In this document: positions 8,901 through 43,792 of the stretch, in pieces
Numbering within the stretch: position 1 is the stretch's first letter
Layout: each line of letters begins with the position of its first letter
Origin: a virus
Virus record (IMG/VR): IMGVR_UViG_3300027608_001459
Span: 1 to 43,792 of that record
Length of the DNA stretch: 43,792 nucleotides
Direction: 5' to 3' (one strand)
The notes under the pieces: model-generated
Seen by the model: the letters and a program-made list of their open reading frames with translations, nothing else
The model's database searches: none
What the model was told of the DNA's origin: nothing
Made by a program: the position numbers and the translations under genes

Positions 8901-8901
8901 G

Positions 8902-8909
8902 ATTAAATA
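8902..8909 (+). promoter_or_regulatory. Late-promoter-like octamer (ATTAAATA)
   Basis: Located 19 bases before ATG 8929, with GGAGC in between as ribosome binding site. It lies just after the upstream stop and is not part of it. Resembles T4 late -10 TATAAATA. Confidence 0.35.
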
Positions 8910-8928
8910 CAAGATACGGAGCAAATAA

Positions 8929-15880: not shown

Positions 15881-15881
15881 T

Positions 15882-18857
15882 ATGCCTATATCAGCATACA
15901 TTAGCAAACGAGAATACATTGTTACGGTTCATAATTTTCAAGACCTAGACAGCATCTATGCTGATTTAGAAACACTTGGAAAATCTCCTGCTGGAGTAGA
16001 CCTATCTAGAAGTGTAGAATGCCTGCATCGTAGAGCTACAAGTAGAAATACACATTACTTACTAACAGATTGGGAAGCTGGTGAGCTTGCTGCCGATCAT
16101 AGAATTAAATCAGTAACCCTTGCTCCTCAATATCTAGGCATCCAAGCAGGAACATTTGCCATAGAACAAACATCTTCTTCATGGGATAAATCTTCCGCTA
16201 CTTCAAACAATATGAAAAATTGGGGTTTATTACGCTGTACAGGAGGCGAACAATTAGTCAACTGGGGTGGAACTGGATATAACGGTAACGGCACAGGCAC
16301 TCCTGCACAATCAGGTACAATCACCTTAACACAAACTGGACGCAATGTTGATGTGGTGATTTGTGACCTCAATGGTATTGTATGGAATCATCCAGAATAT
16401 ACTGTTAATGCAGACGGTACTGGTGGCTCTAGAGCCATTCAGTACAATTGGGGCCAACATAACGCAGAAATAGACAACGGTGCAAACGGAACTTATATAT
16501 ACGGAACTGGGGATCATTCTACACACGTTGCTGGCACAGTTGCTGGCAATACACAAGGGTGGGCCCGTGATGCTAACATTTATAGCATTTACTATGATGC
16601 TGGCAATCCTGGAAATTTTAGTTATGTATTTGATTATATTAGAGCATTTCATAGAAACAAAGCAGTGAATACAGCTACAGGTCGAAAAAATCCTACCATT
16701 GTTAATAACAGCTGGGGGCAAAGTATTTTTCCTAGTCAATGGGAGTTTAGTGATATTACAGCAGTGACCTATAGGGGAACACGATATGAACCAGGTGGTA
16801 CTGTTACCTTTAATGGTGTAAGTGGAGTGTGTACTGCTAATACAAAGTTAGCTGATCTAGTAAATTTTGAACTTGGTGGTAATCGTATTACAACGACGGG
16901 ACCATATGTTCCACCAGGTGGAAGTATTTTAACTAAGCCAAGTGCGTGGACTCAAGAAGGGCAAGAAGCATTTATAACACAATTTGCTGCTCCAGATGCA
17001 CAATACGTATTGACTGTACAAGGTCCTGCTGATATAAGTTTTATCAGTAATGTAGCCGCTGATGCTGTTTCTGGAACGATGAGTGTGCAAGTTGAAGTGG
17101 TCGTTAAACAAGGTCCTACTGTGATTAATACGTATACTGGACCTGTTAGTTCAACTACTAATGGTGGCACTATTGAATCAATAGTTGAAGAACTCACAGT
17201 TAGTCTAGCTAATACTGCTGTCTATACTGTAGAATTTAATACTACATTAGATACTGCAGGTGCAGGTGCAGACTTGTCAGTTGCAACTGCCATGAGATTT
17301 ACTGTAATTACAGATGTAGTTGGTGCTGGTGCAACAGTTGCACCTATTAGCAATTCGTTATTAGGTGCTGCCAGTCTTGGTGTGTCTACAACACCGACAG
17401 TTGGAAACAGTGACGATGGGTACTGGACTCTAAACTTGCCGTTTAGTATAGAATATTTAGGTACTACGTACACTACAATATACGTAAGCACCAATCATTA
17501 TCTAACATTTGGCGGAGGGTCAACTGTCTGGAGTGGTATTAGTATAACAACTCCAAATCTTCCTAAAATCATGTGGTGTTCTGCGGATAATTCTGCACAG
17601 AGAATTTATTTTGGTGTTGAAGATGCAGGAACTGTTGGAACTTATACAGTTATTAATTCTGGTACAAGCGCATATACAATTAATTCATTATCTAATCCCA
17701 CTCTAACATTAAAAAGGGGTGATACATACACATTCAATGTCAGCGCCAGCAACCATCCTTTCTGGATTACAACAGTTCAAGGTACTGGTGCCGGAGATGC
17801 ATATAACACAGGAGTTACTAATAACGGGACTGATTCAGGTACTATTACTTTTACAGTGCCTATTGATGCTCCTTCTACGCTTTATTATAGTTGTGCATTT
17901 CACGTATCAATGGGAGGTACCATTAATATTGTAGCAGGAACAAGAACATATCGTGTTAGATTAGAAGGCAACGGAGGAACGTCTGGCACGTTAGGTAGTC
18001 CTGGAATGGTATGCGAATATGTATTCTATGAAAATGCGCCGGCCCAAATTGATTTAATAACCGGCGTTAACAATAGAAAGACTGCCGGCGGTGGGTTTAC
18101 TATTCAACAGTTAAACGATTGGGGATTCATCAGTGGTCAACGTATTCCTGCTCGTGTAGCAGCATGCGATGTTGACCTAGAAGACTTATACTCTGAAGGT
18201 ATTGTTATGGTTGGGGCTGCTGGCAATGGTCGGTGGAAACATGATGTACCAGGTGGTGTTGATTGGAATAACTCTTTTGAAATGTCTAGTCGTTATCCTG
18301 ATAGTGTTAGTACTCCTTATTTCTATATGAGGGGCACTAGTCCAACTGCCAATGATAATCTAGTTAGCGGGCAATACAATTTACCTTCAATCTGTGTAGG
18401 CGCAGTGGACAGCATACAAATTGATCAGAAAGTTCAATTTAGTGATTGTGGTCCAGGTGTAGATATTTGGGCACCTGGAACTTATATTATTAGTGCTTTG
18501 CCAAGTGGTGGCGCCGGAGATCTTAGAAACATCACCTATCGTATTGGTAAGTTTAGCGGCACTAGTATGGCTAGCCCACAAGTATGTGGTGTATTAGCAT
18601 GTGCGCTAGAATTGTATCCGCATATGACGCAAACAGCCGCCAAGGCCTATATACTAGCCTATGCTAAAAATAATCAATTAACTGCCAACACTAATGGTCC
18701 GGCAGATGGCCAAGATTTGCAAGGTGCGCCTAATAAATTTTTATATTATCATAAAGAACGTTTAGTTACTGGAAACACTGTGCCAAAGTTAAATTATCAA
18801 CCTAGGCCTAGTACAGGATCAGTATATCCTAGACCTAGAATAAGAAGGACTCTATAA
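15882..18857 (+). CDS. Subtilisin-like (S8) serine protease with inserted cupredoxin domain, virion-associated (991 aa)
   Basis: ATG 15882 (MPISAYISKREY) is chosen because GAGG lies 8 bases upstream and it directly follows the previous stop; ATG 15870 lies inside the previous gene. The S8 catalytic set is complete: Asp162 in VVICDLNG, His212 in GDHSTHVAGT, oxyanion Asn782 in GAAGNG, and Ser895 in SGTSMASPQ. About 500 residues are inserted between His and Asn. That insert contains, at about 604-684, a cupredoxin-like domain (LTLKRGDTYTFNV) with candidate type-1 copper ligands His625, Cys671, His674 and Met677 (C-x2-H-x2-M, as in amicyanin). No signal peptide is seen. Lying among fibre genes, it is probably a virion protein that matures fibres or digests the host surface. 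The protease call is firm; copper binding is inferred. Confidence 0.87.
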   Translation: MPISAYISKREYIVTVHNFQDLDSIYADLETLGKSPAGVDLSRSVECLHRRATSRNTHYLLTDWEAGELAADHRIKSVTLAPQYLGIQAGTFAIEQTSSSWDKSSATSNNMKNWGLLRCTGGEQLVNWGGTGYNGNGTGTPAQSGTITLTQTGRNVDVVICDLNGIVWNHPEYTVNADGTGGSRAIQYNWGQHNAEIDNGANGTYIYGTGDHSTHVAGTVAGNTQGWARDANIYSIYYDAGNPGNFSYVFDYIRAFHRNKAVNTATGRKNPTIVNNSWGQSIFPSQWEFSDITAVTYRGTRYEPGGTVTFNGVSGVCTANTKLADLVNFELGGNRITTTGPYVPPGGSILTKPSAWTQEGQEAFITQFAAPDAQYVLTVQGPADISFISNVAADAVSGTMSVQVEVVVKQGPTVINTYTGPVSSTTNGGTIESIVEELTVSLANTAVYTVEFNTTLDTAGAGADLSVATAMRFTVITDVVGAGATVAPISNSLLGAASLGVSTTPTVGNSDDGYWTLNLPFSIEYLGTTYTTIYVSTNHYLTFGGGSTVWSGISITTPNLPKIMWCSADNSAQRIYFGVEDAGTVGTYTVINSGTSAYTINSLSNPTLTLKRGDTYTFNVSASNHPFWITTVQGTGAGDAYNTGVTNNGTDSGTITFTVPIDAPSTLYYSCAFHVSMGGTINIVAGTRTYRVRLEGNGGTSGTLGSPGMVCEYVFYENAPAQIDLITGVNNRKTAGGGFTIQQLNDWGFISGQRIPARVAACDVDLEDLYSEGIVMVGAAGNGRWKHDVPGGVDWNNSFEMSSRYPDSVSTPYFYMRGTSPTANDNLVSGQYNLPSICVGAVDSIQIDQKVQFSDCGPGVDIWAPGTYIISALPSGGAGDLRNITYRIGKFSGTSMASPQVCGVLACALELYPHMTQTAAKAYILAYAKNNQLTANTNGPADGQDLQGAPNKFLYYHKERLVTGNTVPKLNYQPRPSTGSVYPRPRIRRTL

Positions 18858-23011: not shown

Positions 23012-23392
23012 ATGTCAGAGATTTTTAAAAATCCAGGCATTAATATTAATGCTTGGAAGGTATCCACTTTGAAGCCATTAACTGATAATGTAATAGTTAC
23101 TGATATGAATTTCAGTGAACAAAAAAGCAACGGCGGCATTATCATACAAAGTGACAATGGCAAAGCACACGGCGTTCATCCTAGATGGGCTAAAATATAT
23201 GCAGTGGGCCCGGACCAAAAAGATGTATCCGTGGGGCAATGGATTTTGATGGAACACGGTCGTTGGACTCGAGGTATTAAGATCGAAGACGATGAAGGTG
23301 AAAAAATCATTAGAAAGGTTGATACTAAATGTATGCTAATGGTATCAGACGAGGCGCCACCAGATGACGCATGGATTGGAAGAGAACTATGA
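23012..23392 (+). CDS. GroES-type co-chaperonin (T4 gp31-like role)
   Basis: The 126-residue protein starts at ATG 23012 with GAGG upstream. Residues 18-32 (STLKPLTDNVIVTDM) match the first GroES strand (LRPLxDRVxV). Residues 34-50 (FSEQKSNGGIIIQSDNG) match the mobile loop, whose G-G-I-x-hydrophobic tripeptide docks onto GroEL. WAKIYAVGPDQKDVSVGQWI matches the family's G-x-(V/I)-x-A-V-G-x-G...V-x-V-G-D core. It would cap host GroEL, as T4 gp31 does for capsid folding. It has about 30 more residues than typical GroES. The stop overlaps the next start (ATGA). Confidence 0.88.
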   Translation: MSEIFKNPGININAWKVSTLKPLTDNVIVTDMNFSEQKSNGGIIIQSDNGKAHGVHPRWAKIYAVGPDQKDVSVGQWILMEHGRWTRGIKIEDDEGEKIIRKVDTKCMLMVSDEAPPDDAWIGREL

Positions 23393-31579: not shown

Positions 31580-31604
31580 CCTTTTAATTCTAGTGCTATA
31601 TAAT
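31576..31604 (+). promoter_or_regulatory. Sigma-70-type promoter of dnaJ, leaderless geometry
   Basis: TTGACC (31576-31581), exactly 17 bases, TATAAT (31599-31604), then AGTACT and ATG 31611. One mismatch in the -35. The predicted start point falls on the ATG. The -10 sits inside an inverted repeat (31592-31610). Confidence 0.75.
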
Positions 31605-31610
31605 AGTACT
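31592..31610. other. Inverted repeat over the dnaJ promoter -10
   Basis: AGTGCTAT, 3-base centre ATA, ATAGTACT: 7 of 8 positions complementary (the eighth would be G-U in RNA). It covers the -10 element and the bases up to the ATG, the usual place for an operator. It could also be chance in AT-rich DNA. Confidence 0.35.
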
Positions 31611-32438
31611 ATGGACTATTATCAAATATTAGGTGTAGCTGAAAACGCAAGTCAGGATGATATCAAAAAGGCCTACAAAAAGTTGGCCATGAAGAATCAT
31701 CCTGATCGCGGCGGCGACACACAAAAATTTCAAGAAATATCGCAAGCGTATGACACGTTAGGCGACGAGCAAAAACGACAACAGTATAACGCTCAAAAAA
31801 ATAACCCTTTTATTCACGCACGTAGCGGCAATCAAGGATTCCCAGATATAAACGATATCTTTGGAGCAACATTTGGATTTGGTCCAGGATTTGCAGGGTT
31901 TCATCAACAACGTCGTAATAGAGATTTATCTATTCGCGTTACTATCACATTCAAGCAGAGTTATCTAGGTACACAAATTGAAGCTAGATTTAACACTCCC
32001 GCTGGACGAGCACAAACTGTAGTAGTAGATATACCTCCAGGTGTACAAAGCGGACAAACTATTCGTTATGCTGACCTAGGTGACGATGCTTTTCCAAACA
32101 TGCCTCGTGGCAATTTGAACGTTACTGTGATGGTAGAAGCTGATCCAGAATGGGAAAGACGTGGTAACGATCTATTCACAACTGTGACTGTGTCAGCATT
32201 AGAAGCAATGACTGGGTGCATGAAAGAAGTAAACTGTTTAGATGGCGGAATTATGCCACTAAAGCTACGTCCTGGCATTAGACATGGGTCAGAGTTTGCC
32301 AGTGGTGGACGTGGATTTAGAGATATTAATTCAGGTAGACTAGGCAGTTTAATTGTTATATTAAACGTAGACATTCCGGCAGTAACAGATCCCCAATTAG
32401 TGCAGGAATTAAAGACATTATATGCTAAACTACAATAA
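31611..32438 (+). CDS. dnaJ: DnaJ-type Hsp40 co-chaperone (class II, no zinc finger)
   Basis: The start is set to ATG 31611 because MDYYQILGV is the normal J-domain N-terminus and the promoter geometry points here; ATG 31593 lies inside the -10 region. 275 residues: J domain 1-65 with the HPD triad at 30-32, a G/F-rich linker at about 80-105 ([19 protein letters not shown]), then the two beta C-terminal substrate-binding domains ([17 protein letters not shown]). The CxxCxGxG zinc repeats are absent, so it is CbpA/DjlB-like. It would stimulate host DnaK ATPase. clpA follows 19 bases downstream. Confidence 0.92.
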
Positions 32439-32457: not shown

Positions 32458-34734
32458 ATGGTAGAACCTAGCAGCGAATTACAAATGGTATTTGAAAAAG
32501 CCATTGATGTAGCAAAGAAGCTAAAACACGAATACTTAACGATTGAACACTTGTTGTTCTCTATGTTATGCGAAGACTCGTTTAACAAGTGTGTCACTGG
32601 CTATGGTGCAGATGCTGATTTCCTTAAAAAGAATCTAGAGCTATATCTTAAAAACAAGTGTGATGAAATTATCACAGAACAAACTGATGTTAAACCACGT
32701 AAGACACAGGCAGTAGAGCGTGTGCTTAATCGTGCATTTACACAGGTCCTGTTTAATGGGCGTCAAAAAATTGAACCAACAGATGTATTCCTTGCTATGA
32801 TGAGCGAAAAGCGTTCATATGCAAACTACTACATTCAACAAGCAGAAATTGATAAAGATAAATTTGCTGACTATTTAAATTCAGAAATTACAGAAACAGA
32901 AGAAATGGAAGAGCCAAGAGACGGTCAAGGCGAAAAAGCCTTACGTGCATTTACAACTAACCTTAATGATGCAGTTAAAAAGAATAAGGTTGATCCAGTA
33001 ATTGGCCGTGTTGATGAATTAGAAAACATTGCCCTGTCATTAGGTCGTCGTAGTAAATCAAATGTAATCCTAGTTGGTGATCCAGGTGTAGGTAAGACTG
33101 CTATTGCAGAAGGACTTGCGTTTAACATTGTTAAAGGTGCTGTTCCAGACTTCTTAAAAGAATACACTGTGTATAATCTTGACATCAGTGCTATGCTTGC
33201 AGGATCAAAGTATCGTGGCGACTTTGAAGAACGATTTAAACTAGTATTACGTGGTCTTGACAAGAAAGGCAAAACAATCTTGTTTATTGACGAAGCACAC
33301 ATGATCAGTGGTGCAGGTGCAGGTGGACAACAAAGTAGTAATGATCTTGCTAACATGATGAAGCCTGCACTAAGCAAAGGCAACATTAAAGTTATTGCAT
33401 CAACTACGTGGGAAGAGTATCGCAAGTACTTTGAGAAGGATCGTGCATTGATGCGTAGGTTTGCTCGTATTACTATTGATGAGCCTACTCCAGAAATGGC
33501 AGTACAGATCCTTAAGGGTATTAAGAAGTACTACGAAGGTCATCACAATGTTAAGATCAAAGACGATGCTATACAGGCAGCAGTTAAACTTAGTATTAAG
33601 TATCAAACAGATAAGAAGTTGCCTGACAAAGCAATTGACCTAATCGACCTTGCCTGCTCACGCTTTAATTTAAAACTTGCAGACGACCGCATTGTTGATG
33701 AGGCAGCTATTCAGTACGAACTGGCCAAGGTAGTTAACATGCCTACTGAAAAGATTGCAGAACAAGAATCAAGTAGTCTTGTTAATCTTGAAGCCAATCT
33801 ACAACAAGAAGTCTACGGACAAGACACTGCTATAACAGAAATTGTAGATAAGATTTTAGTTAGTCAAGCTGGACTAAAAGCAGAGAATCGTCCAGTAGGT
33901 GCGTTTGTGTTTATGGGACCAACTGGTACAGGTAAGACAGAAACTGCAAAAGCATTGGCTAAAAACTTAGGTGTTAAGTTGATCAGATTTGACATGAGTG
34001 AGTATCAAGAAAAACATTCAGTTAGCAAGTTAATTGGATCACCTCCAGGCTACGTAGGCTTTGAAGAAAATGCAGGTTTGTTGATTACACAAATTCAAGA
34101 AAATCCTAACTGTGTATTGTTATTAGATGAGATAGAAAAGTCACATCCTGATGTGTCAACTATTCTATTGCAGATGATGGACAATGGATTTGTCACAGGA
34201 TCTAATGGTAAGAAAGCAGATTGCCGTAATTTGATTCTAATCATTACAACTAATGCTGGCGCTAGTGACTCTGAGAAGAATCAGATTGGTTTCGGTCAAC
34301 AGGAAAAGCAGTACAGTGATGAAGCATTGAAGAAATTCTTTGCACCTGAATTCCGCAATCGTCTAGACGGTGTTGTTACCTTTGGCAAGCTAACTAAAGA
34401 AACAATGATCAAGATTGTTGGCAAGTTTATGGTTGAAGTTAAAGATCAAATTAAAGACAAAGGCATTAAGGTTAAAATTAGTGACGATGCCATTGACTGG
34501 TTGATTGACAAGGGCTTTGACAGTAAAATGGGTGCTCGTCCGTTACAACGTGTTATTGACAAGGACATCAAGCGTCCACTGGCTAAAATGATGTTGTTTG
34601 GAGACTTAAAGAACGGGGGAAGTTTAACTATTAGTGTTACAGAAGGTGCGTTAACATTAACTGCTAAACCTAAAGTACAAAAGGTAATTGTAGATGAAAT
34701 TACATCAGTCAATACAGACCAAGCAGACAACTAA
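32458..34734 (+). CDS. clpA: ClpA-type AAA+ unfoldase with ClpP-docking loop
   Basis: 758 residues, the same length as E. coli ClpA by memory. N-domain 1-150 (double Clp-N repeat: HEYLTIEHLLFSML), D1 Walker A GDPGVGKT at 207-214 and Walker B ILFIDEAH, D2 Walker A GPTGTGKT at 487-494 and Walker B VLLLDEIE, arginine fingers in FAPEFRNRLD, and C-terminal GARPLQRVI. There is no ClpB-type middle coiled coil. The loop KNQIGFGQQ (I610-G611-F612) matches the tripeptide that docks ClpA/ClpX onto ClpP. No clpP is present in the window, so it would use host ClpP. AAAGGA ribosome site 7 bases before ATG 32458. Most T4-like phages lack such a gene in full length, to my knowledge. Confidence 0.93.
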   Translation: MVEPSSELQMVFEKAIDVAKKLKHEYLTIEHLLFSMLCEDSFNKCVTGYGADADFLKKNLELYLKNKCDEIITEQTDVKPRKTQAVERVLNRAFTQVLFNGRQKIEPTDVFLAMMSEKRSYANYYIQQAEIDKDKFADYLNSEITETEEMEEPRDGQGEKALRAFTTNLNDAVKKNKVDPVIGRVDELENIALSLGRRSKSNVILVGDPGVGKTAIAEGLAFNIVKGAVPDFLKEYTVYNLDISAMLAGSKYRGDFEERFKLVLRGLDKKGKTILFIDEAHMISGAGAGGQQSSNDLANMMKPALSKGNIKVIASTTWEEYRKYFEKDRALMRRFARITIDEPTPEMAVQILKGIKKYYEGHHNVKIKDDAIQAAVKLSIKYQTDKKLPDKAIDLIDLACSRFNLKLADDRIVDEAAIQYELAKVVNMPTEKIAEQESSSLVNLEANLQQEVYGQDTAITEIVDKILVSQAGLKAENRPVGAFVFMGPTGTGKTETAKALAKNLGVKLIRFDMSEYQEKHSVSKLIGSPPGYVGFEENAGLLITQIQENPNCVLLLDEIEKSHPDVSTILLQMMDNGFVTGSNGKKADCRNLILIITTNAGASDSEKNQIGFGQQEKQYSDEALKKFFAPEFRNRLDGVVTFGKLTKETMIKIVGKFMVEVKDQIKDKGIKVKISDDAIDWLIDKGFDSKMGARPLQRVIDKDIKRPLAKMMLFGDLKNGGSLTISVTEGALTLTAKPKVQKVIVDEITSVNTDQADN

Positions 34735-35353: not shown

Positions 35354-35390
35354 ATCCCTTTTGCGATAAATATCGTAAGAGGGATTTTTT
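35354..35390 (+). terminator. Rho-independent terminator with a late-promoter octamer in its loop
   Basis: A 14-bp stem: ATCCCTTTTGCGAT pairs with ATCGTAAGAGGGAT (two G-U pairs in RNA), loop AAAT, followed by six T in 35385-35390. It ends the dnaJ-clpA operon. GATAAATA (35365-35372) spans the loop. Confidence 0.88.
35365..35372 (+). promoter_or_regulatory. Late-promoter-like octamer (GATAAATA) inside a terminator loop
   Basis: Same octamer as at 39417. It lies 44 bases before ATG 35417. The stem symmetry forces ATA-TAT around the loop, so part of the match comes from the palindrome. Confidence 0.4.
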
Positions 35391-35416: not shown

Positions 35417-35782
35417 ATGAAAATATTTGAACTTTACAACCCTAACATGAAACGCGAAGAGTTTGATCTAAATGATGATCTAATCTTTTTCATGCGTAAC
35501 GATCCACAATTCTATAGAGGCGAATATCATCCGTTTCTACAAAAATTCAAACGCCACTGTGAAGCAGGACGTGGTGTACGTCCTGCAGCATTTGCTCCTA
35601 TTGTGCAGAAGGCATTTGAACATTATAAAAATACATTTCCTGTTGAAGGCATGGAACAACAACTGTCAAGACCAGCACTAGAAGAAATCTGCGATAAGCT
35701 ACAAGGTGAAGAAACTAATTTCTATCACGACGAAAAACAAAGAGCAACTGAGAAAAAAGATGATCCTACGAGAACTATTTGA
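35417..35782 (+). CDS. Unknown protein at start of the head-cargo cluster (121 aa)
   Basis: ATG 35417 has no clear Shine-Dalgarno (upstream CTAATAATT). N-terminus MKIFELYNPN resembles the leaders of the following genes. Acidic, helical, with YRGEYHPFLQKFKRHCEAG and AFAPIVQKAFEHYKNTFPV segments. No recognised motif. It overlaps the next gene by 23 bases. Confidence 0.6.
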   Translation: MKIFELYNPNMKREEFDLNDDLIFFMRNDPQFYRGEYHPFLQKFKRHCEAGRGVRPAAFAPIVQKAFEHYKNTFPVEGMEQQLSRPALEEICDKLQGEETNFYHDEKQRATEKKDDPTRTI

Positions 35783-37334
35783 AGCCAAAGCTAAATCAGT
35801 AGGCATTATATTTGGCCGCTTTAATCCTCCTCACATGGGACACATGAAAGCGTGGGAAATGGCTTCTGAGAATTCAGTATGGTATGTTGGTACTAATAAA
35901 AGTACACAAGGCCCTAAGGATCCCTTACCGTTTGACATTAAAGTCAAAGCAATGCAGGCAGTATATCCTGAAATCAAAGGACATATTGTTGCTGAAATTA
36001 GTTGGTTAACATTGGCCAGCAAGGTATATGAAAAGCACGGTAACATTGTGTTAAATGTTTATACTGACGAAGACTGGGTCACTAAGACTCTTGTACAATA
36101 CAATGGAAAAGAAGGCACTCATGGCTACTATGAGTTTGGTACGATTCAACAACAGACTACACCTCGTCTAAGTTCAGCAACCGCTCTACGTAACGCAGTA
36201 GCAGCTGACGATAGAGATTTGTTTGGTCAAGCAGCAGGTGTTGACCCTAACACACTAGTTGCAGGTCACCCGTTCTTTGATGTGGTAAAACATTACCTAA
36301 TGCCACATGCTGAAAAGGCTGCGGCAAAAGTAGCCAAGAAAAAAGTTAAAGAACCAGCAACAGACGAATCCTTATTGGGATTCTTAGCTAAAAAGCCGCA
36401 AGCAGTAGTTCCAAAAAAATTAGATTATAATGCTGTACGCAAAGCATCACAGGCAGGGCCACAAAGTAAAACTTATAGACATCCTGAAGAATTTTGGAAA
36501 GACCAGCAGAAGGTAAAGAAACCAGAGAAAGATATAGCTGAAGGCACTAGTATTGAAAGCACCCTAAGAGCTGTTATCAATGACATAGGTGAACCAATTA
36601 CTAATGTCTACGACACAATGAAGTTTCAGGCCAAGAAGTATATGGAAAATCACGGTGAACTAGATCGTGGATTTAGAATGGTAGCAGCTGGCATTGGTGG
36701 TCGCTGGGTACAGAGCATGTATGTAGGTAGACTACAGAATGAGCTCTATGACCTATGTAAGTATAACACTCGTAGAACTGTTGAGTTGCAACAATTCCTG
36801 CGTGGAGTTGAAGCTGATGGCGAGTTAGAAATGAAAAGATCATTTGGCAACATTGCCAATGAACTTCCTAGAATACTGGCCAAATTAGGTCAACATCTTA
36901 ATGCTCCACAACTGACAAAGAATGCCAATCGCTGGATGCAAAATAAAGCAGCCTATGAAGAATATATTGCCAACTTAGAATTAGAAGATGAGTATGACGA
37001 GCCTGTGGTAGCTAAATCTCCTAAGAATCCAGCCATAGGGCAACAACGTAGTCAAGTAGAAGATATTGTTAACGATGTATTAAGCAAATTACCAAAAAAG
37101 ATTGCTGGAGATATACGTAATGCTATTGCTCGTAGTCCTAACAAACTACAAGCATTACAAGCAGAGTTAAAAAAGTATGGACAGAAAAGTGTAGCTGAAA
37201 ATGCTTGGGATAGACTACAACGTGAAAAGGCGTTAGAGTCAGCAGGCGTTGGCATTATCACAAAACAGAATACTACTGTTGATGTAAATAAGAATACGCC
37301 AAAGAAGAATTTGAAGGCATTTAGGTTAGCGTAA
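35760..37334 (+). CDS. Nucleotidyltransferase-fold domain fused to a head-protein-like C-terminal region (524 aa)
   Basis: ATG 35760 (MILRELFEAKAKS) fits the leader pattern of neighbouring genes; ATG 35706 is deep in the upstream gene. Residues 12-160 are a cytidylyltransferase/NMN-adenylyltransferase-like domain: IFGRFNPPHMGH (GxFxPxHxGH) near 14-26 and LSSATALRNAVAADD (the S-(S/T)-x-x-R motif) near 143-158. Residues 170-260 are a Lys/Ala-rich linker. The rest is a helical region (DIAEGTSIESTLRAVINDIG onward) and a short C-terminal helical unit ending SVAENAWDRLQREKALESAG. IAEG and VAEN are prohead-protease-like sites. It might be packaged in the head and delivered; substrate unknown. The stop overlaps the next ATG. 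Confidence 0.75.
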   Translation: MILRELFEAKAKSVGIIFGRFNPPHMGHMKAWEMASENSVWYVGTNKSTQGPKDPLPFDIKVKAMQAVYPEIKGHIVAEISWLTLASKVYEKHGNIVLNVYTDEDWVTKTLVQYNGKEGTHGYYEFGTIQQQTTPRLSSATALRNAVAADDRDLFGQAAGVDPNTLVAGHPFFDVVKHYLMPHAEKAAAKVAKKKVKEPATDESLLGFLAKKPQAVVPKKLDYNAVRKASQAGPQSKTYRHPEEFWKDQQKVKKPEKDIAEGTSIESTLRAVINDIGEPITNVYDTMKFQAKKYMENHGELDRGFRMVAAGIGGRWVQSMYVGRLQNELYDLCKYNTRRTVELQQFLRGVEADGELEMKRSFGNIANELPRILAKLGQHLNAPQLTKNANRWMQNKAAYEEYIANLELEDEYDEPVVAKSPKNPAIGQQRSQVEDIVNDVLSKLPKKIAGDIRNAIARSPNKLQALQAELKKYGQKSVAENAWDRLQREKALESAGVGIITKQNTTVDVNKNTPKKNLKAFRLA

Positions 37335-37549
37335 TGGATGAAATTGCACAGTTAAAACGCCTAGCTGGTGTTAATAGTTATAAAGGTCTGCAGCCTTATG
37401 ACATTAATGAAGGCAGTAATATCAGCGTTACTGGCAATGAGAAAGGTCAGTTGATGAAACAGCACAACATTAAATCAGGAACACCTGAATGGTTTAAGTT
37501 ATGGTTTAGTCTACCTTATATGACTGGCGAAAAGCCTATTGGAGATTAA
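37334..37549 (+). CDS. Small unknown protein (71 aa)
   Basis: TAATG overlap with the previous gene. MDEIAQLKRLAGVNSYKGLQ at the N-terminus, then PYDINEGSNIS (an INEG site), and EWFKLWFSLPYMTGEKPIGD at the end. The C-terminal part with W/F clusters is conserved-looking but not recognised. Followed 1 base later by the endolysin gene. Confidence 0.6.
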   Translation: MDEIAQLKRLAGVNSYKGLQPYDINEGSNISVTGNEKGQLMKQHNIKSGTPEWFKLWFSLPYMTGEKPIGD

Positions 37550-37550
37550 G

Positions 37551-38183
37551 ATGAGTTTTGAGTTTGATTTTACACAAGAAAAAGTAGCACACCTACTACA
37601 CAAGAACAAAGAACCAGCATTCTGGTTCAATGCTATGAACACCTACTTGCCAAAGTTTGGTATTACCACTGCAGCTCGTGTTGCAGGATTTGTAGCACAA
37701 GGTCAGCATGAAAGTGCAGACTTTACTATTTTACAAGAAAATTTAAACTATAGTGCAAAAGGCCTACGTGGTATATTTGGAAAGTATTTCCCGGATGATG
37801 CTATTGCAAATCAATATGCCAAAAAGGCAGAGATGATTGCCAATCGTGTCTACGGTGGACGTATGGGCAATGGTCCAGAAGCATCAGGTGATGGATACAA
37901 GTTCCGTGGTCGTGGTATACTACAGTTAACAGGTCGTGCAAACTATACACAATGCTCGCGTGATCTATTTGGTGACGACACACTAGCTAACGATCCGGAT
38001 CTAGTACGCACACCAGAGTATGCTATTATCACAGCCTGCTGGTTTTGGTACAAGAATCAACTAAATGCTATTTGCGATCAAGGTGATATTGTATTGTTAA
38101 GTAAACGCATCAATGGTGGCACTATTGGTTTAGAAGATCGTATTAAACATTGGAACGATGCACTAGACGTGTTTGAAAGTTAA
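37551..38183 (+). CDS. GH19-type endolysin / chitinase-like muramidase (210 aa)
   Basis: ATG 37551 has GGAG at 37541-37544; the in-frame start 37539 overlaps the previous gene. The GH19 core is clear: AGFVAQGQHESADFTILQEN with the catalytic Glu54 in H-E-S, NLNYSAKGLRGIFGKYFPDD, then YKFRGRGILQLTGRANYTQC and the C-terminal RINGGTIGLEDRIKHWNDAL. Phage GH19 proteins cut peptidoglycan (or chitin). No signal peptide, so release would need a holin. It sits in the head-protein cluster, about 6 kb from the spanins, so a virion-borne entry role is also possible. Confidence 0.88.
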   Translation: MSFEFDFTQEKVAHLLHKNKEPAFWFNAMNTYLPKFGITTAARVAGFVAQGQHESADFTILQENLNYSAKGLRGIFGKYFPDDAIANQYAKKAEMIANRVYGGRMGNGPEASGDGYKFRGRGILQLTGRANYTQCSRDLFGDDTLANDPDLVRTPEYAIITACWFWYKNQLNAICDQGDIVLLSKRINGGTIGLEDRIKHWNDALDVFES

Positions 38184-38184
38184 T

Positions 38185-39231
38185 ATGTTTTTAAGAGAAT
38201 TAATGCAGCGAGTAGGTCAAGAGGATTACCATCCAAACGATCCACCACCTGGGCCGGAGACTAAACCTACAATGCCTGCAGGTACTGTTAAGGTAGATGT
38301 TGATGATGTCTATGATTGGTATAAGTTGGGTCAGCATATTAGTAATATGAAAGGTCTTGGCAAACACGACTTTGGTCAAGGGCCTCCTAGCACTATATTC
38401 TCCTTTGGCAGCGAAGAAGAAGAACACAAATATATCGATGCATTAAAAAAGACAGGTCTTACCACTACTGATATTGATCCATTAGATCCTAATCAACCTA
38501 AAGGTATGCCTCGTCAAAAGACTGATCCTACATACAATGTAGGAGAGGCTAAGAAGCGCAGACGTAAAGCTCGGCGTACTTCAGGTATGCCAGCGGCATA
38601 CGGTCCAGGTCCCTACGGCGGCTATGGATACTATGCTGGCTACAGCGGAGAAGGTGGAGGGGACGGGGGTGGTGGTGAAAGCATTGAGAATGAAAACTTT
38701 GCTGATGGAAAGAACCCACAAGACAAAGGCGACAGTAAACGTCACGGTATCAATACTAAAGCATCAGTAAGTAGTTTACGTAAGACTGCTAAACAAGGTG
38801 GACGTAAGGGCCAGTTAGCACATTGGCTTGCTAATATGAAAGCTGGTAAGAAGAAGTCACTTAACGAAGCTGTTATTCATCCTAGTACTATGGATGCACT
38901 AGAAGACTTTCTGCCATTTGTAATGAAGTTGCTAAAACTAGACAAACTGCCAAGAATCAGCGTTCATAAAACTATAGAGACAGGTGATCAACCTAGCTTT
39001 GGTGGCTATGATATGGAAAACAACTCAATACAGTTAGCTCTCAAAGATCGTCATCCTGCAGATATACTTAGAACACTAGCACACGAATTAGTACACTATA
39101 AACAAAATACTACACACAGATTGCACGATCGCAGTGGACTAACTGGTAGCCCAGAAGAAAATGAAGCAAATACTAAAGCAGGTATTATCATGCGTCATTT
39201 CAACAAACGCTTTCCGCAATACTTGGAATAA
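38185..39231 (+). CDS. HExxH zinc metalloprotease-like protein, possibly head-packaged (348 aa)
   Basis: ATG 38185 (MFLRELMQRVG) is preferred over 38173, inside the endolysin. The C-terminal domain has AHELVHYKQ with His300-Glu301-x-x-His304 and a downstream Glu (E324 or E327 in PEENEA) as third zinc ligand. Middle: a Gly/Tyr-rich stretch (GPGPYGGYGYYAGYSGEG, about 155-180) and a basic region. VGEA and SLNEA are prohead-protease-like sites, the latter placed just before the protease domain. It could be an inactive precursor activated by cleavage (inference). Confidence 0.72.
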   Translation: MFLRELMQRVGQEDYHPNDPPPGPETKPTMPAGTVKVDVDDVYDWYKLGQHISNMKGLGKHDFGQGPPSTIFSFGSEEEEHKYIDALKKTGLTTTDIDPLDPNQPKGMPRQKTDPTYNVGEAKKRRRKARRTSGMPAAYGPGPYGGYGYYAGYSGEGGGDGGGGESIENENFADGKNPQDKGDSKRHGINTKASVSSLRKTAKQGGRKGQLAHWLANMKAGKKKSLNEAVIHPSTMDALEDFLPFVMKLLKLDKLPRISVHKTIETGDQPSFGGYDMENNSIQLALKDRHPADILRTLAHELVHYKQNTTHRLHDRSGLTGSPEENEANTKAGIIMRHFNKRFPQYLE

Positions 39232-39235
39232 TACT

Positions 39236-39421
39236 ATGAAAATAAGAGAAATACTAGTTAAAGAAGATGCTACGCCAGGTGGTACTAGTGCTGCTAATGT
39301 TAGCGTAGGACCTGTTTACAAAAACAAAGCAGGAAAAGCAGGTAAGAATAAAGACGGTACAGTAAAGAACGCATTAGATATGCCTAACAATTTACTCACC
39401 GGTGGCAGCTTAAAACGATAA
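39236..39421 (+). CDS. Small basic leader-type protein (61 aa)
   Basis: MKIREILVKEDATPGGTSAA with a VKED site, then Lys/Gly-rich sequence (KNKAGKAGKNKDGTVKNALD). ATG 39236 follows the previous stop by 4 bases; the ATG at 39161 lies inside the previous gene. No known function; similar leaders and composition to the neighbours suggest a head-internal peptide or protein. Confidence 0.55.
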   Translation: MKIREILVKEDATPGGTSAANVSVGPVYKNKAGKAGKNKDGTVKNALDMPNNLLTGGSLKR

Positions 39422-39424
39422 ATA
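39417..39424 (+). promoter_or_regulatory. Late-promoter-like octamer (GATAAATA)
   Basis: Ends 24 bases before ATG 39449, with TTGGAG in between. Overlaps the stop of the 39236 gene. Confidence 0.4.
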
Positions 39425-39448
39425 CAACGATATTGGAGAATTCTCAAA

Positions 39449-40519
39449 ATGCAAGATAACTTTCACCGCCCAGCAGATCACGAAGCAAAAATGGCTCGTG
39501 CTGACCTATTTAAATGTGCTCAATACAGCTTTAAGCTGTTCAAGATGATTGGCGAAGACCAAGAGCTAGAAGGTTGGGTACAGGCTAAGATTACCAAAGC
39601 CGCTGACTACATTGCGTCTGTGTATCACTACATGGAATACGAAATGAAGATCAGTGAGTACGGTAGTGCTATTGAAAACAGCGACATGTATTCAGAAAGC
39701 ATTCGTCGTGCATTTGCACAGAAGCTGACAGAAGCTAAGAAGCAGGCTGTTAAAGCTAAAGATGATATGAAGAAGAAAGAGAAAGCACTAGACGAAGAAA
39801 AGTCATCAACTGGTGGTGAGATTGATCGTTCTAAGAAAGGTGTTACTAAGCATAAAGAAAATCCAAACAGATTCAGTGACGAAGAGCATACTGAACCTAA
39901 ATCACAAGCTAAATCAAAATCTTCTGCAGAGAAAGCTGGTGACAAAGCACACGACAAAGCACAAGAGAAAGACAGTAAGGCATGGGGTAAAGCTAACCCA
40001 GGCAAGCAGACTATCATGAAGGGTGGTGTTAAAACTACTAATGAAGGTGCAAAGCCAGACTTTCTAGACATGGACAAAGATGGCGACAAGAAAGAGCCAA
40101 TGAAGAAGGCTGTTAAGGACAAGAAAGTTAAAGAAGGTAGTCATTACGGTAACGAGAAGTTAGCAAATGCTAAAGCAAGTCGTAGCGGTACAAGCACAGT
40201 TGTTGACCAAGACGGTAAGGGTGGTGTAAAAACTACAACTACAAAAACTCCTGCTAAGAAAATTAAAGAAGCAGCAGGTAAATGCAATCATACACCCAAA
40301 GGTAAATCATGTCCAGTACACGGTCTAAAAGAATGTGGCGGCATGTATGAAGGCGACAAGTTTGATCCATTAAAACATGTTGAGAAGAAGTCGCAAACTC
40401 CTCCTATTAAACAAGCAGCCAAAGATGTTGATCGCAAAAACTATGGCGATCGCACTGCATTGATGAAAGCTGGTGGTGTTAAAGATGATCGCGGCCCACG
40501 TGGTGTAAAACAAGGTTAA
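39449..40519 (+). CDS. Lys-rich head-type protein with DxDxDG loop and Cys/His cluster (356 aa)
   Basis: GGAG lies 11 bases before ATG 39449. Residues 1-110: helical domain (EAKMARADLFKCAQYSFKLF). Residues 110-280: highly charged, Lys-rich, low-complexity. D207-x-D-x-D-G-D213 (FLDMDKDGDKKEPMKKA) resembles a calcium loop, but the twelfth position is not acidic. C279-x-H281-x6-C288-x2-H291-x4-C296 is a candidate zinc site. LTEA, TNEG, VKEG and IKEA are prohead-protease-like sites. Probably DNA-associated or head-internal (inference). Confidence 0.65.
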   Translation: MQDNFHRPADHEAKMARADLFKCAQYSFKLFKMIGEDQELEGWVQAKITKAADYIASVYHYMEYEMKISEYGSAIENSDMYSESIRRAFAQKLTEAKKQAVKAKDDMKKKEKALDEEKSSTGGEIDRSKKGVTKHKENPNRFSDEEHTEPKSQAKSKSSAEKAGDKAHDKAQEKDSKAWGKANPGKQTIMKGGVKTTNEGAKPDFLDMDKDGDKKEPMKKAVKDKKVKEGSHYGNEKLANAKASRSGTSTVVDQDGKGGVKTTTTKTPAKKIKEAAGKCNHTPKGKSCPVHGLKECGGMYEGDKFDPLKHVEKKSQTPPIKQAAKDVDRKNYGDRTALMKAGGVKDDRGPRGVKQG

Positions 40520-40522
40520 ATC

Positions 40523-41266
40523 ATGGACATGAAGAAAATACTACAGGCATTGGATGGAGCTTCTGAGAAGCCTGCAGTAGATTCCAATGACATGAAAAAG
40601 TTCCTTACTATTGTAGAAGGCAAGGGTTCTTTGAATCGACCTACTACTGCAGAAGCTATGACTATGCAGCATTATGCAGAAAAGAAAACAATCACTGCTC
40701 CAGTACTTAATGTAGCAGAAGGTGCAAAGCCTAGCATGATTGGCAAATACTTTAAAGCAGTAGAGCAAGAATTAAAAGAAGCTGCAGAACGTCCTAACGA
40801 ACGTGCTCGTCAATTAGCAGAACGTGTTATTGAACGCATTGTTCCTAATGCAGACGGATCACTACCTGATCCAAGTATCAATCGCCTAACAGGCAAACCT
40901 AATCCTCCAGCAGCAGAACCTACACCTAGCAATCTAAAGCCAGGTGGTGCAACTGTTGAATACGGTGGGGAAACATACGACGTAATGGTGTTTGGTGACA
41001 AAAGTATTAGACCAAGAATAGCACGTAGTGACAAAGTTGTTAGTGCTAAGGTTTATACCATGGGCAACAAGATGTTTGTGCTATTAGATGCACCAGCTCA
41101 AGAAGGCATAGCAGAAGATAGCGATCCTTGCTGGGACAGCCATAAGATGGTAGGTACAAAGAAAAAAGGTGGCAAGACTGTGCCTAACTGTGTGCCTAAA
41201 GAAGCAGTTAATCCTGCTCAACAGGCAGCTATTGCTATTGCAAAAAAGAAAGCAGGTAAGAAGTAA
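40523..41266 (+). CDS. Head-cluster protein with CW...VPNCVP motif (247 aa)
   Basis: MDMKKILQALDGASEKPAVD leader, then IVEG, VAEG, LKEA and IAED prohead-protease-like sites. Middle: a small beta-rich domain (ATVEYGGETYDVMVFGDKSI). C-terminal DPCWDSHKMVGTKKKGGKTV followed by PNCVPKEA, a short motif that I recall in several marine T4-like phage proteins. Function unknown. TAATG overlap with the Dps-like gene. Confidence 0.65.
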   Translation: MDMKKILQALDGASEKPAVDSNDMKKFLTIVEGKGSLNRPTTAEAMTMQHYAEKKTITAPVLNVAEGAKPSMIGKYFKAVEQELKEAAERPNERARQLAERVIERIVPNADGSLPDPSINRLTGKPNPPAAEPTPSNLKPGGATVEYGGETYDVMVFGDKSIRPRIARSDKVVSAKVYTMGNKMFVLLDAPAQEGIAEDSDPCWDSHKMVGTKKKGGKTVPNCVPKEAVNPAQQAAIAIAKKKAGKK

Positions 41267-41703
41267 TGGACGAACTCAAAAAAGCAATGAAGATTGCATT
41301 TGCTAGTGAATATGCATTTGCTATCAAAGCACAAAACTTTCATTGGAATGTAGAAGGACCATTGTTTCCACAACTACACATGTTGTTTGCTACAGTCTAT
41401 GAAGAAGTGTATGGTGCAATTGATGACTTTGCAGAAAATATTCGCAAGTTAGGATCATACACACCTGCCAGTTTCCAACGCTTTTCAATGCTAACACAAG
41501 TTGAAGATGAATTAAACATGTTAGAAGATAGAGCTATGATTGCAGAATTACTGCAAGATAGCGATAAAATGGTTAAACTGTTAAAGATAGTATTTGATCT
41601 TTCTGAACAAGCAGGCGAACACGGATTAAGTGACTTTATAGCAGGACGCATGGATGCACACCGCAAACACAGCTGGCAGCTAAGGGCTACTTCTAAAGAA
41701 TAA
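41266..41703 (+). CDS. Dps-like / ferritin-like DNA-protection protein (145 aa)
   Basis: KAQNFHWNVEGPLFPQLHML then FATVYEEVYGAIDDFAENIR is the Dps signature. By spacing to E. coli Dps (H51, H63, D67, D78, E82) the residues are His26, His38, Ala42, Asp53 and Glu57, so one ferroxidase ligand (the D67 equivalent) is missing. Family members form 12-subunit shells that store iron and shield DNA from oxidants. About 20 residues shorter than E. coli Dps: the Lys-rich N-terminal DNA-binding tail is short. Neighbours are putative head proteins; a protective role for phage or host DNA is inferred. Confidence 0.85.
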   Translation: MDELKKAMKIAFASEYAFAIKAQNFHWNVEGPLFPQLHMLFATVYEEVYGAIDDFAENIRKLGSYTPASFQRFSMLTQVEDELNMLEDRAMIAELLQDSDKMVKLLKIVFDLSEQAGEHGLSDFIAGRMDAHRKHSWQLRATSKE

Positions 41704-41826
41704 GAACACACTACCTTAGGACCTTTGCGTTTTTAAGTGTGGGGAGGCTGCTGCCCGCAGAAAGCGATTCGCTACCGTAGACTGCTAAGTGAGCATAAAT
41801 ATATTATAGATTATTTGGGGAACAAA
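41704..41826 (+). other. 123-base gap with several short hairpins and a late-promoter octamer
   Basis: Holds CACACT...AGTGTG (41706-41742 region), CTGC-TGCCC-GCAG, AGCG-ATT-CGCT and TAG-ACTG-CTA hairpins in succession. None is followed by a T-run. No tRNA T-loop or cloverleaf could be fitted. CATAAATA is at 41794-41801. It might be a leader RNA or a small RNA. Confidence 0.35.
41794..41801 (+). promoter_or_regulatory. Late-promoter-like octamer (CATAAATA)
   Basis: Differs from T4 TATAAATA by one base. It lies 25 bases before ATG 41827, in non-coding DNA and free of stop codons, with TTGGGGA as ribosome site. The best-placed of these motifs. Confidence 0.5.
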
Positions 41827-42759
41827 ATGGACTTAAAAGCATTAATGCAGAAGTTAGAGACAATCAATACAAAACAGATCGTTACAGAATCTGTAGAAAC
41901 AAAAAAAGTTATTACAGAATCAGTAGCACGTCGAGTAGTTAAAGAATCTGCAGACCCTGTTTTTACAAGTTCTATTGCACGTGGCCTAGTTGAAGAATTT
42001 GGTTATGAACTAGAAGAAGATACTCTAGACGAAGCCGGACTTACTCCTGAGCAACAGGCAAAAATGGGACAGGCTAATCCACAAGATCCGTACATTGTAG
42101 CTAGAGCACTAGGCAAAGATGCTGTACCAGTAAGTTATTTCACTGACCCAGAAGATCAAAAAATTGCCAAGCAGTTAGGATTTAAAGACACAGTAGCAAC
42201 TGCACCAGGAGGCGCAGCCACTAAGCCAGCTGTTGCTCCAGAGTTAGTAGGAACGCAAAATCAAGCACCTGACGCAGCGGCACAAGCTGATCGAATTGCT
42301 AATAGAATGGATCAAGAAGCAGGAGCAAATACTGCAGGGCAGGCGGCAGCACCAGCTGCTCCGGCAGCCGTAGATCCAGCAGTTGCAGCTACTCGTGAAA
42401 AGTTTAAAGCCCTAATGGACAAGTTAGAAAAGACAGGCGGTGTTAGCGGTTCTGCTCCTGCACCAGCTGCTCCTGCAAAACCTACACAAATTGCTCCTGC
42501 ACCAACAGGCGCAGCTACTAAACCATCAACAGGCTTTGCCAATACAGGCGGTGGCGCTGCCGTTGGTAATCCAAACATGGCCAAGCAAGGTGTTAAAGAA
42601 GATCCTAACGAAGGCAATGCCTTTAGCGGTGCGCTTGATGCTGCTAAAGACTCGGGTGCTGATGAATTTGAAGTTGATGGAAATAAGTATCCTGTAAAAG
42701 AAACTGTTAGCTACGGCGATGATCAGATTTTAACTATCATTAAAAGCATCAAATACTAA
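41827..42759 (+). CDS. Ala/Pro-rich head-type protein with repeated VTES leader motif (310 aa)
   Basis: ATG 41827 (MDLKALMQKLETINTKQ) follows TTGGGGA; the frame is open upstream to 41737, but that part covers the promoter-like gap. The leader holds three spaced copies of a V-x-E-S motif (IVTES, VITES, VVKES), then TLDEA and GVKED, all prohead-protease-like. The middle is Ala/Pro/Thr-rich low-complexity (PAAPAAVDPAVAATREKFKA). C-terminus: NEGNAFSGALDAAKDSGADE, then a VDGNKYPVKE unit. Function unknown; head-internal or scaffold-like role inferred. Confidence 0.65.
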   Translation: MDLKALMQKLETINTKQIVTESVETKKVITESVARRVVKESADPVFTSSIARGLVEEFGYELEEDTLDEAGLTPEQQAKMGQANPQDPYIVARALGKDAVPVSYFTDPEDQKIAKQLGFKDTVATAPGGAATKPAVAPELVGTQNQAPDAAAQADRIANRMDQEAGANTAGQAAAPAAPAAVDPAVAATREKFKALMDKLEKTGGVSGSAPAPAAPAKPTQIAPAPTGAATKPSTGFANTGGGAAVGNPNMAKQGVKEDPNEGNAFSGALDAAKDSGADEFEVDGNKYPVKETVSYGDDQILTIIKSIKY

Positions 42760-42760
42760 T

Positions 42761-43792
42761 ATGAAAGATTCGATTGCCGAATCACTTGCCGCTATTCGTT
42801 CTTTAGAATCTCCTGAGATTCTAAACGAAGCTGCGGTTGCTGCTCCGGCGGCAGCAGCAAGCAAAGGCATTGGAAGATTCATCCCAGGTGTTGGTGCTGC
42901 CTTAGGTGCATATGATGCCTACGGTCGTGCTAAACAAGGTGATTGGGCAGGCGCTGGATTATCAGCACTAGGTGGTGCAGCTAGTCTAATACCAGGCGTT
43001 GGCACTGCTGCCAGTATAGGTATTGCAGGTGCTCAAGCACTACGTGACAAACAACGTACTGGTAGTTACATGCCAGGAGAAGATGAGATTGCGGCAGCTG
43101 TGGCAAAAGATGCAACAGCACAACCTGCAGTAGCACAGGCTAAACCAAATGCTGCTCCTGCTATGACTAAAGATCAAATTATGGCTTTTCAGAAAGCTAA
43201 CGGTCTAACACCAGACGGTGTACTAGGACCAAAAACACAAGCAGCATTAAATGCTCAAAAAACTAAAGGAACTGCTATGTCAGAAACACAAAAAATTGCA
43301 GAGCTAAGAAATCGTCTAGCTCAAATAGAATCAAGTCAACAAGTTGACGAAATTTCATTAGGTGGAATTGGGGCCGGCATTAAAAACTTTGGCAGTGCTG
43401 TTAAAACAGGTTTTACAAATCCTGAATATGCTAAAGTTGCTGGTATGTCTACTAGAGGTGCTACCAAAGGACAAGTTGTCAATAAAGCATCAAACATTGG
43501 TGCCAAGACTGGCAAGGCTCTAAACACAACTGCAAAAGTTGGTGCTGGTGCTGCTGTTGGCGCAGGTGCAATGGCTGCACTAGGCGGAGGTGGTGCTACT
43601 AATCCAACTGATAAGCCAACAGTTAAGCCAGCAGTAACTCCTGCGGCTCCGGCACAAACTCCAAATGCAGGTCCAGACAAGGCAGATGTAGATGCATTAA
43701 ATGCAATGGCAGCTGAATTAGAAAACAGTCAAGATCCAGCAGATATTGAATTGATGAAACGATACAACGGTATTATCAATGCTATTAATAAT
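42761..43792 (+). CDS. Peptidoglycan-binding-domain protein, 3' end beyond window (344 codons seen)
   Basis: Open from ATG 42761, 1 base after the previous stop, to the window end. MKDSIAESLAAIRSLESPEI then LNEAA is a leader with a prohead-protease-like site. Residues about 35-110 are Gly/Ala-rich and weakly hydrophobic with two repeats (FIPGVGAALGAYDAYGRAK; LIPGVGTAASIGIAGAQAL). Residues about 140-170 (KDQIMAFQKANGLTPDGVLG then PKTQAALNA) match the PG_binding_1 fold. A second hydrophobic Gly/Ala run is at about 250-280. Perhaps ejected with DNA to act at the cell wall or membrane (inference). Confidence 0.75.
   Translation, partial: MKDSIAESLAAIRSLESPEILNEAAVAAPAAAASKGIGRFIPGVGAALGAYDAYGRAKQGDWAGAGLSALGGAASLIPGVGTAASIGIAGAQALRDKQRTGSYMPGEDEIAAAVAKDATAQPAVAQAKPNAAPAMTKDQIMAFQKANGLTPDGVLGPKTQAALNAQKTKGTAMSETQKIAELRNRLAQIESSQQVDEISLGGIGAGIKNFGSAVKTGFTNPEYAKVAGMSTRGATKGQVVNKASNIGAKTGKALNTTAKVGAGAAVGAGAMAALGGGGATNPTDKPTVKPAVTPAAPAQTPNAGPDKADVDALNAMAAELENSQDPADIELMKRYNGIINAINN

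Follow-up and report, generated by a model that had tools for sequence, protein, structure and literature searches.

Positions 35417-43792 of the DNA analysed here probably form a late locus for internal head proteins of the T4 type, with products that would be targeted by N-terminal leaders and cleaved by a gp21-type protease, and with one product that would bind the capsid lattice through a copy of the capsid N-fist. The window is the entire IMG/VR virus record IMGVR_UViG_3300027608_001459, a fragment of 43,792 bases from a freshwater T4-like phage. This reading draws on features that are present in the sequence of the window and its relatives: leaders, an excess of cleavage sites, retention of the leader while the payload is exchanged, fusions that keep their sites, a prohead protease in the relatives, late-promoter motifs, and the resemblance of one small protein to the capsid protein. 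That CTS-tagged internal proteins are cut by gp21 is already known in principle from T4. The modular fusions and the capsid N-fist copy go beyond the original prediction, which had proposed a head-cargo operon in this interval.

Gene Content and Expression

Gene starts were called with a simple home-made caller, which gave 11 ORFs in the interval, all on the + strand, with the final ORF running past the contig end. The interval and reading frames had been predicted correctly, with ten proteins counted rather than 11. A nucleotide search of phage records with the window gave no match. A scan with the GH19 protein yielded 46 relatives, in many of which the operon is syntenic, lying downstream of a Clp-like ATPase gene and upstream of a DNA polymerase gene.

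The first ORF encodes a 121-aa protein (35417-35782) with a leader-like start, MKIFELYN, that lacks a cleavage motif; its membership in the locus is uncertain. The 524-aa protein that follows (35760-37334) has the leader MILRELFE/A (slashes denote predicted cuts), an NMNAT/cytidylyltransferase-like domain and then more modules, with sites IAE/G and VAE/N; a PDB sequence search with this nucleotidyltransferase returned nothing useful. Next are a 71-aa protein with a single site, INE/G (37334-37549), and a GH19 endolysin-like protein (37551-38183), which is probably an ordinary endolysin sitting within the operon. The 348-aa protein (38185-39231) has the leader MFLREL, modules with sites VGE/A (121) and LNE/A (228), and then a compact HExxH zincin (residues 229-348; 38869-39228), for which Foldseek gave just weak, general zincin matches (SprT, minigluzincins, Wss1 and IrrE). 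It is followed by the 61-aa protein (39236-39421), which consists of the leader MKIREILVKE (39236-39265), the last residue of which is the predicted cleavage Glu, a copy of the mature capsid N-terminus (39266-39310) and a Lys-containing tail. Three multi-site proteins come next, interrupted by a Dps/ferritin-like protein of uncertain membership (41266-41703): a 356-aa protein with five sites (39449-40519), which has a PHROG family and the motif KPDFLDMDKDGDKKEPMKKA in common with cyanophage virion proteins; a 247-aa protein with four sites (40523-41266), a loose leader, MDMKKILQ, and the C-terminal module PCW..KMVGTKKKGGKTVPNCVP; and a 310-aa protein (41827-42759) with the loose leader MDLKALMQKLE and sites VTE/S, ITE/S and VKE/S, among others. 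The peptidoglycan-binding-domain protein at the end (42761-43792), with early sites IAE/S and LNE/A, is truncated by the contig end and has 371 aa in relative L001.

The sequence ATAAATA is the core of T4-type late promoters. It is rare in the window (5 copies vs 14.5 expected), and three of the five copies lie just upstream of cargo genes on the + strand, at 35366-35372 (upstream of the first cargo gene, 35417), 39418-39424 (upstream of 39449) and 41795-41801 (upstream of 41827). In the relative genome G001, ATAAATA was found within 60 bases upstream of the start of 27 genes (37 copies in all; 0.9 expected), including tail genes, the gene with the MILRELF start and cargo genes. From this placement in both genomes, the operon would be expected to be expressed late, together with the head.

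A gp21 homologue, which the original prediction had proposed to look for, was not found on the window fragment but is present among the relatives: a gp21-type prohead protease (PF03420) was identified in 5 of the 16 relative contigs searched (G001, G002, G005, G011 and G012), the other contigs being fragments. In the four relatives that were read, the protease gene adjoins the portal, scaffold and major capsid genes.

N-Terminal Leaders

Internal proteins of T4 have capsid-targeting leaders of about 10 residues (PMC9026906), and in the T4 record the sequence MKTYQEFIAE/A is found in both IPII and IPIII. A strict leader pattern was matched by 3 of the 11 proteins in the interval (35760, 38185 and 39236) and by no window gene outside it; looser forms occur on 40523 and 41827. 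The leader ends in hydrophobic-x-Glu in 35760 and 39236, and partly so in 38185, where the site is further in. The suggestion that the proteins mostly start with such leaders thus applies to these strict and loose cases and fails for the GH19, Dps, 71-aa (37334) and 356-aa (39449) proteins, which have none. GH19 and Dps were dropped as tagged cargo in this phage for that reason.

We surveyed 1,281 unique proteins taken from the window, from four relative genomes and from 46 loci. The strict leader is found at the start of 64 of them, compared to 1.3 for shuffled N-termini and to 9 fits among 7,456 internal Met residues; like the site counts below, this count includes related genes that are not independent, and the argument rests on how far it departs from the controls. 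Across the relatives, the slot that follows GH19 is occupied by proteins of differing composition, most of which start with M[LFK][LI]RE[LIF]. The leader appears from these sequences to be portable, being kept while the payloads change, and its codons vary synonymously among the relatives, which argues for selection on the peptide rather than for shared DNA. The MILRELF start of the window's nucleotidyltransferase is also present on a 79-aa gene directly after the portal gene in three relative genomes.

Predicted Cleavage Sites and Modular Fusions

T4 gp21 cuts at L/I-x-E (PMC9026906). The motif [LIVMF]xE[AGSND] occurs 28 times in the interval (10.3 per 1000 residues), compared to 13.8 ± 3.3 expected from 500 composition-preserving shuffles, none of which reached 28. 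(Several of the sequence patterns used in this work were defined after inspection.) In the window's other 30 called genes there are 43 occurrences vs 46 expected, which is the chance level. The predicted richness of the interval in such sites is thereby borne out, and the outcome that the original prediction had named as refuting it, a motif density equal to the genome average, did not occur.

The same excess was seen in the relatives. In a set of 177 cargo proteins, non-redundant at 80%, hydrophobic-x-Glu-small was found 517 times vs 290 after shuffling within 20-residue windows, which keeps the local composition; this amounts to 1.78x. Control motifs, in which Glu was replaced by Asp, Lys or Gln or was shifted, or the motif was reversed, gave 0.82 to 1.13x in these proteins, and control genes subjected to the hydrophobic-x-Glu-small test gave 1.09x. 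The site excess across the relatives is specific to the hydrophobic-x-Glu motif.

Sites also tend to coincide with the boundaries of homology between cargo proteins: 83 of 489 boundaries lie no more than 4 residues from a site, compared to 42 for random positions, and the control motifs showed no comparable excess. In L021, L022, L024, L029 and L038, a single ORF encodes both the HExxH protease and the small 39236-type protein, and fused ORFs in the relatives retain the Glu site at the joint (e.g., LDLQE/TATAGATSAGN and LVQE/DATAGGTSAG). Other modules are likewise shuffled between ORFs among the relatives. The simplest reading of this pattern is that the fused cargo proteins are polyproteins that would be opened by the prohead protease.

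A Probable Copy of the Capsid N-Fist

The 61-aa protein has the sequence MKIREILVKE/DATPGGTSAANVSVG..., i.e., a leader, the putative cleavage Glu, and then what its sequence indicates to be a copy of the mature capsid N-terminus, which is a new observation. For the window protein, the match is with capsid proteins of relatives, its own capsid gene being off the contig. The corresponding sequence in the relatives is MRLRELLGE/TATAGATSAGNIASV for the small protein and, at the equivalent of the T4 gp23 cut, KYLAE/SATGGATSAGNVATL for the major capsid protein encoded in the same genome. Within the window and four relative genomes, the signature is confined to the small protein and the major capsid protein. 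Each of the 23 distinct freshwater copies, whether standalone or fused, has the Glu and, two positions before it, a hydrophobic residue.

Each proteome was searched with the capsid arm of the same genome, and 15 shuffled arms per genome served as a control. The top match was the small protein in G001 (score 68; best shuffled arm 48) and G005 (52; 45), the fused version in G011 (62; 52), ORF160 in the cyanophage S-CREM2 (95; 49) and ORF97 in the cyanophage S-SCSM1 (83; 44). No fist copy scored above the shuffled arms in G012 and the Melnitz phage, which means that not every phage has the gene. The gp23 arm of T4 matched a single protein besides gp23 itself, the product of gene 61.1, which has the sequence MKTFKEFIKE/DMVAGDSGGNPENISIGTTSGAVVNKGP, followed by lysines; FIKE/D directly precedes the copied stretch. 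The score for gp61.1 against the gp23 arm was 77, compared to a maximum of 38 in 2,000 shuffles. A short protein with a copy of the phage's own post-cleavage capsid N-terminus is found in G001, G005, G011, T4, S-CREM2 and S-SCSM1. A net basic tail was considered as a strict rule for these proteins and rejected, since the tail of gp61.1 is net neutral.

The resemblance runs about 25 residues beyond the cut, across the N-fist. In gp23, the N-fist comprises residues 66-91, contacts four subunits, two of them in the adjacent capsomer, takes shape on expansion, and is disordered in the five portal-facing subunits (PMC7136217, PMC9958956). A review of the T4 head ascribes N-fists to gp23 only. In a search largely outside the subscription literature, we found no description of gp61.1 as a head protein or gp23 copy, and no described function; the string "61.1" in PMC9026906 is a false text match.

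Phage records matching gp61.1 number 1,437, and those matching the cyanophage version 317, some of the matches being the capsid gene itself. Most fist-copy records are deposited as hypothetical and several as major head or capsid protein; some have no obvious leader. The copies significantly followed their own capsid protein, rather than that of other phages, in the cyanophages only (p = 0.0016); the signal was weak in Straboviridae (0.09) and absent among the three freshwater genomes (0.32), the arms of which are too alike. Copies from the three phage groups do not resemble one another, and a tblastn search with the freshwater small protein gave no match, as would be expected if the fist follows the capsid protein of each clade.

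Related Proteins in Cyanophage Virions

Virion mass spectrometry is available for S-CREM2 (PMC10665884, Table 3). In this phage, a T4-like leader, MKxFxxFLxE, is found on a SAM hydrolase, a kinase, a cytidylyltransferase and two unknown proteins, all of which were detected in virions. Altogether, 5 of 6 leader ORFs were detected vs 22 of 186 other non-structural ORFs (p = 0.0002), with a pattern that was set post hoc. In S-SCSM1, the cluster around the NMNAT gene is annotated as virion protein and is enriched 1.75x in sites; the association between leader and virion was not repeated there (1 of 2 leader ORFs), the pattern being too rare in that phage for a test. The authors of both studies caution that virion-detected proteins of this kind may be co-purified (PMC10665884 for S-CREM2).

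Three window proteins belong to PHROG families of cyanophage virion proteins. The nucleotidyltransferase has phrog_395 and phrog_3041 in common with S-CREM2 ORF154, the 356-aa protein has phrog_24078 in common with S-SCSM1 ORF89, and the 247-aa protein shares phrog_727 and phrog_38880 with S-CREM2 ORF160 and phrog_4359 with S-SCSM1 ORF92. The fist-copy proteins ORF160 and ORF97 are themselves virion proteins.

Discussion

The head-cargo reading of the original prediction is partly supported, by the T4-type leaders, the gp21-type sites, the late-promoter motifs, the gp21 of the relatives and the cyanophage kin detected in virions; it does not extend to GH19 and Dps, which are leaderless. We infer that, late in infection, the leader would carry each protein into the prohead core, where the gp21-type protease would cut after the Glu of hydrophobic-x-Glu, removing leaders and splitting multi-module proteins at their joints. 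The enzymes and small proteins would then remain in the head with the DNA, and some would perhaps be ejected with it. At the step that cleaves the capsid protein, the fist copy would likewise gain its new N-terminus; starting with a copy of the mature capsid N-terminus, it would be expected to bind the capsid lattice.

The closest known systems are the T4 proteins IPI, IPII, IPIII and Alt, which are CTS-tagged, processed by gp21 and ejected, and which likewise combine a short leader ending in hydrophobic-x-Glu and an exchangeable payload with a gp21-type protease in the group. However, the leader here is M-x-L-R-E-L rather than MKTYQEFI, and there are many more loci, with enzyme payloads and multi-module fusions that have sites at their joints. 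The ejection proteins of phiKZ and SPN3US, with a gp21-related protease, are similar in that many proteins are packed in the head and propeptides are cut after x-x-Glu, at multiple sites, and some of them have identical N-terminal propeptides; they differ in protease clade, in the motif (S/A-x-E) and in the proteins themselves (PMC5694885). In polyvalent proteins of phages and conjugative elements, too, one packaged polypeptide contains several domains, which proteolysis is presumed to release (PMC5512222). Their release is ascribed to embedded peptidases, whereas the joints here have prohead-protease-type sites; a HExxH zincin is present in the locus, yet many multi-site proteins are without one.

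A quite plausible alternative, although not the one we favour, is that the cargo consists of prohead core, scaffold or DNA-condensing head proteins that are processed and have no work beyond assembly, with no injected effector. The MILRELF start on the 79-aa gene beside the portal gene would fit such a role, and many of the cargo proteins, being multi-site, of low complexity and rich in Lys, resemble the T4 core proteins that are cut into fragments (PMC9026906). However, nucleotidyltransferase and HExxH zincin domains lie right behind a leader or site, and similar enzymes are present in cyanophage virions. That leaders and sites are mere by-products, of 5' ends moved by recombination and of Glu motifs in acidic, disordered proteins, is strongly disfavoured and very improbable: the slot after GH19 is indeed recombination-prone and its left flank conserved, but the leader codons differ synonymously, the leader occurs at unlinked loci, and the residue and phase controls are flat under shuffling that preserves local composition.

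For the small protein, we tentatively propose, as a possibility, that T4-like phages use an N-fist supplied in trans. A tiny leader-tagged protein (gp61.1; 39236-39421) would be packaged and cut by the protease alongside the capsid protein, its new N-terminus would fill N-fist sites without a donor by the portal and the pentameric vertices, and its Lys-containing tail would contact DNA. N-fist donation crosses capsomer borders; sites next to the portal and the T4 gp24 pentamers may thus be without a donor, and a free fist could fill them. In phage P1, the internal proteins DarA and Hdf lie on the inner shell at penton-hexon junctions and touch DNA, and DarA is cut by the prohead protease (PMC12810830), which shows such sites to be usable; these are large folded proteins, for which the excerpts of that paper report no copy of the capsid N-terminus. 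T4 gp61.1, a member of phrog_1823, matches the window protein in its leader, KED junction, copy of the mature capsid N-terminus, Lys-containing tail and length (54-61 aa), but the two fist sequences are those of different phages' capsid proteins, and gene 61.1 lies beside primase gene 61, whereas its counterpart here is in the cargo operon.

The small protein could instead be a regulatory substrate: as a competitor of the capsid protein for the prohead protease, it would set the timing of maturation without becoming part of the shell. The freshwater copies do reproduce the cleavage junction, down to positions P3 and P1, but we consider this role unlikely, as the copying extends about 25 residues past the cut, over the N-fist, and related proteins are retained in the virions of two cyanophages. 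A functionless remnant or misannotated piece of the capsid gene is hardly credible: the resemblance does not go beyond the arm, and some copies carry the database label major capsid protein, but the protein is retained, always short, in the 1437 and 317 records, the Glu stands just ahead of the arm in every freshwater copy, and the cyanophage copies track their own capsid protein and occur in virions.

The resemblance to gp23 places gene 61.1 of T4, which has stayed uncharacterised even though no large phage is better studied, in a new light, as a copy of the part of the shell that locks capsomers together. It is relevant, too, to a long-standing puzzle, namely what the shell does at its irregular sites near the portal and the vertices. 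A repeated misannotation of fist copies also comes to light. More generally, the leaders and sites offer a sequence rule by which head cargo can be predicted across a large group of T4-like phages, most of them uncultured, and joints with sites would reveal modular polyproteins among them.

Late-promoter-like motif and other window genes

The motif ATAAATA occurs in the window at a frequency three times below that expected, and is placed nearly always ahead of genes (copies at 21423, 30422, 35366, 39418 and 41795). It is likewise scarce and almost confined to gene fronts in the relatives, and is therefore a good marker of late promoters.

Several window genes were assigned by eye alone. A fatty-acid-desaturase-like protein (12855–13595; motifs HRCQAHR and HRKHHQNTD) has tail-fibre-like genes on both sides, and a large protein with subtilisin-like sequence (15870–18857; GDHSTHVAGTVAGN and GTSMASPQ) sits in the structural gene region. 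A chaperone-like set was recognised in the same way, consisting of GroES-like (23012–23392), DnaJ-like (31593–32438) and ClpA/B-like (32458–34734) genes, the latter two of which directly precede the cargo operon.

Linear modules and fist copies

Short linear modules, KPDFLDxDKDGxKKEPMKKA and CWxxYxxxGTKKxxGKxxxNCV, recur in cargo proteins that are otherwise unlike one another, both in the freshwater clade and in cyanophages. They are carried by the window proteins encoded at 39449–40519 and 40523–41266, by S-SCSM1 ORF92 (L098, 40061–41623) and by S-CREM2 ORF160 (L092, 8343–9236); the cyanophage proteins bearing them are virion proteins. In the relative locus L016, a GH19 (endolysin-like) domain lies within a leader-bearing 607-aa protein (MKILDIITE..., 8172–9995), adjoining a standalone GH19 gene.

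In some Straboviridae, namely Vibrio, Acinetobacter, Aeromonas and Serratia T4-like phages (L107, L108, L109 and L110), the gp61.1 fist copy makes up the C terminus of a longer protein (≈150 residues) and is immediately preceded by acidic residues. Among the phage-record matches, small gp61.1-type or cyanophage fist-copy genes bear the label “major capsid protein” or, in other records, “major head protein” (for example, NC_055713 187181–187306, MN013084 19118–19216, NC_055710 148635–148718 and NC_015290 158695–158808), apparently owing to a match to the capsid protein that is confined to the arm.
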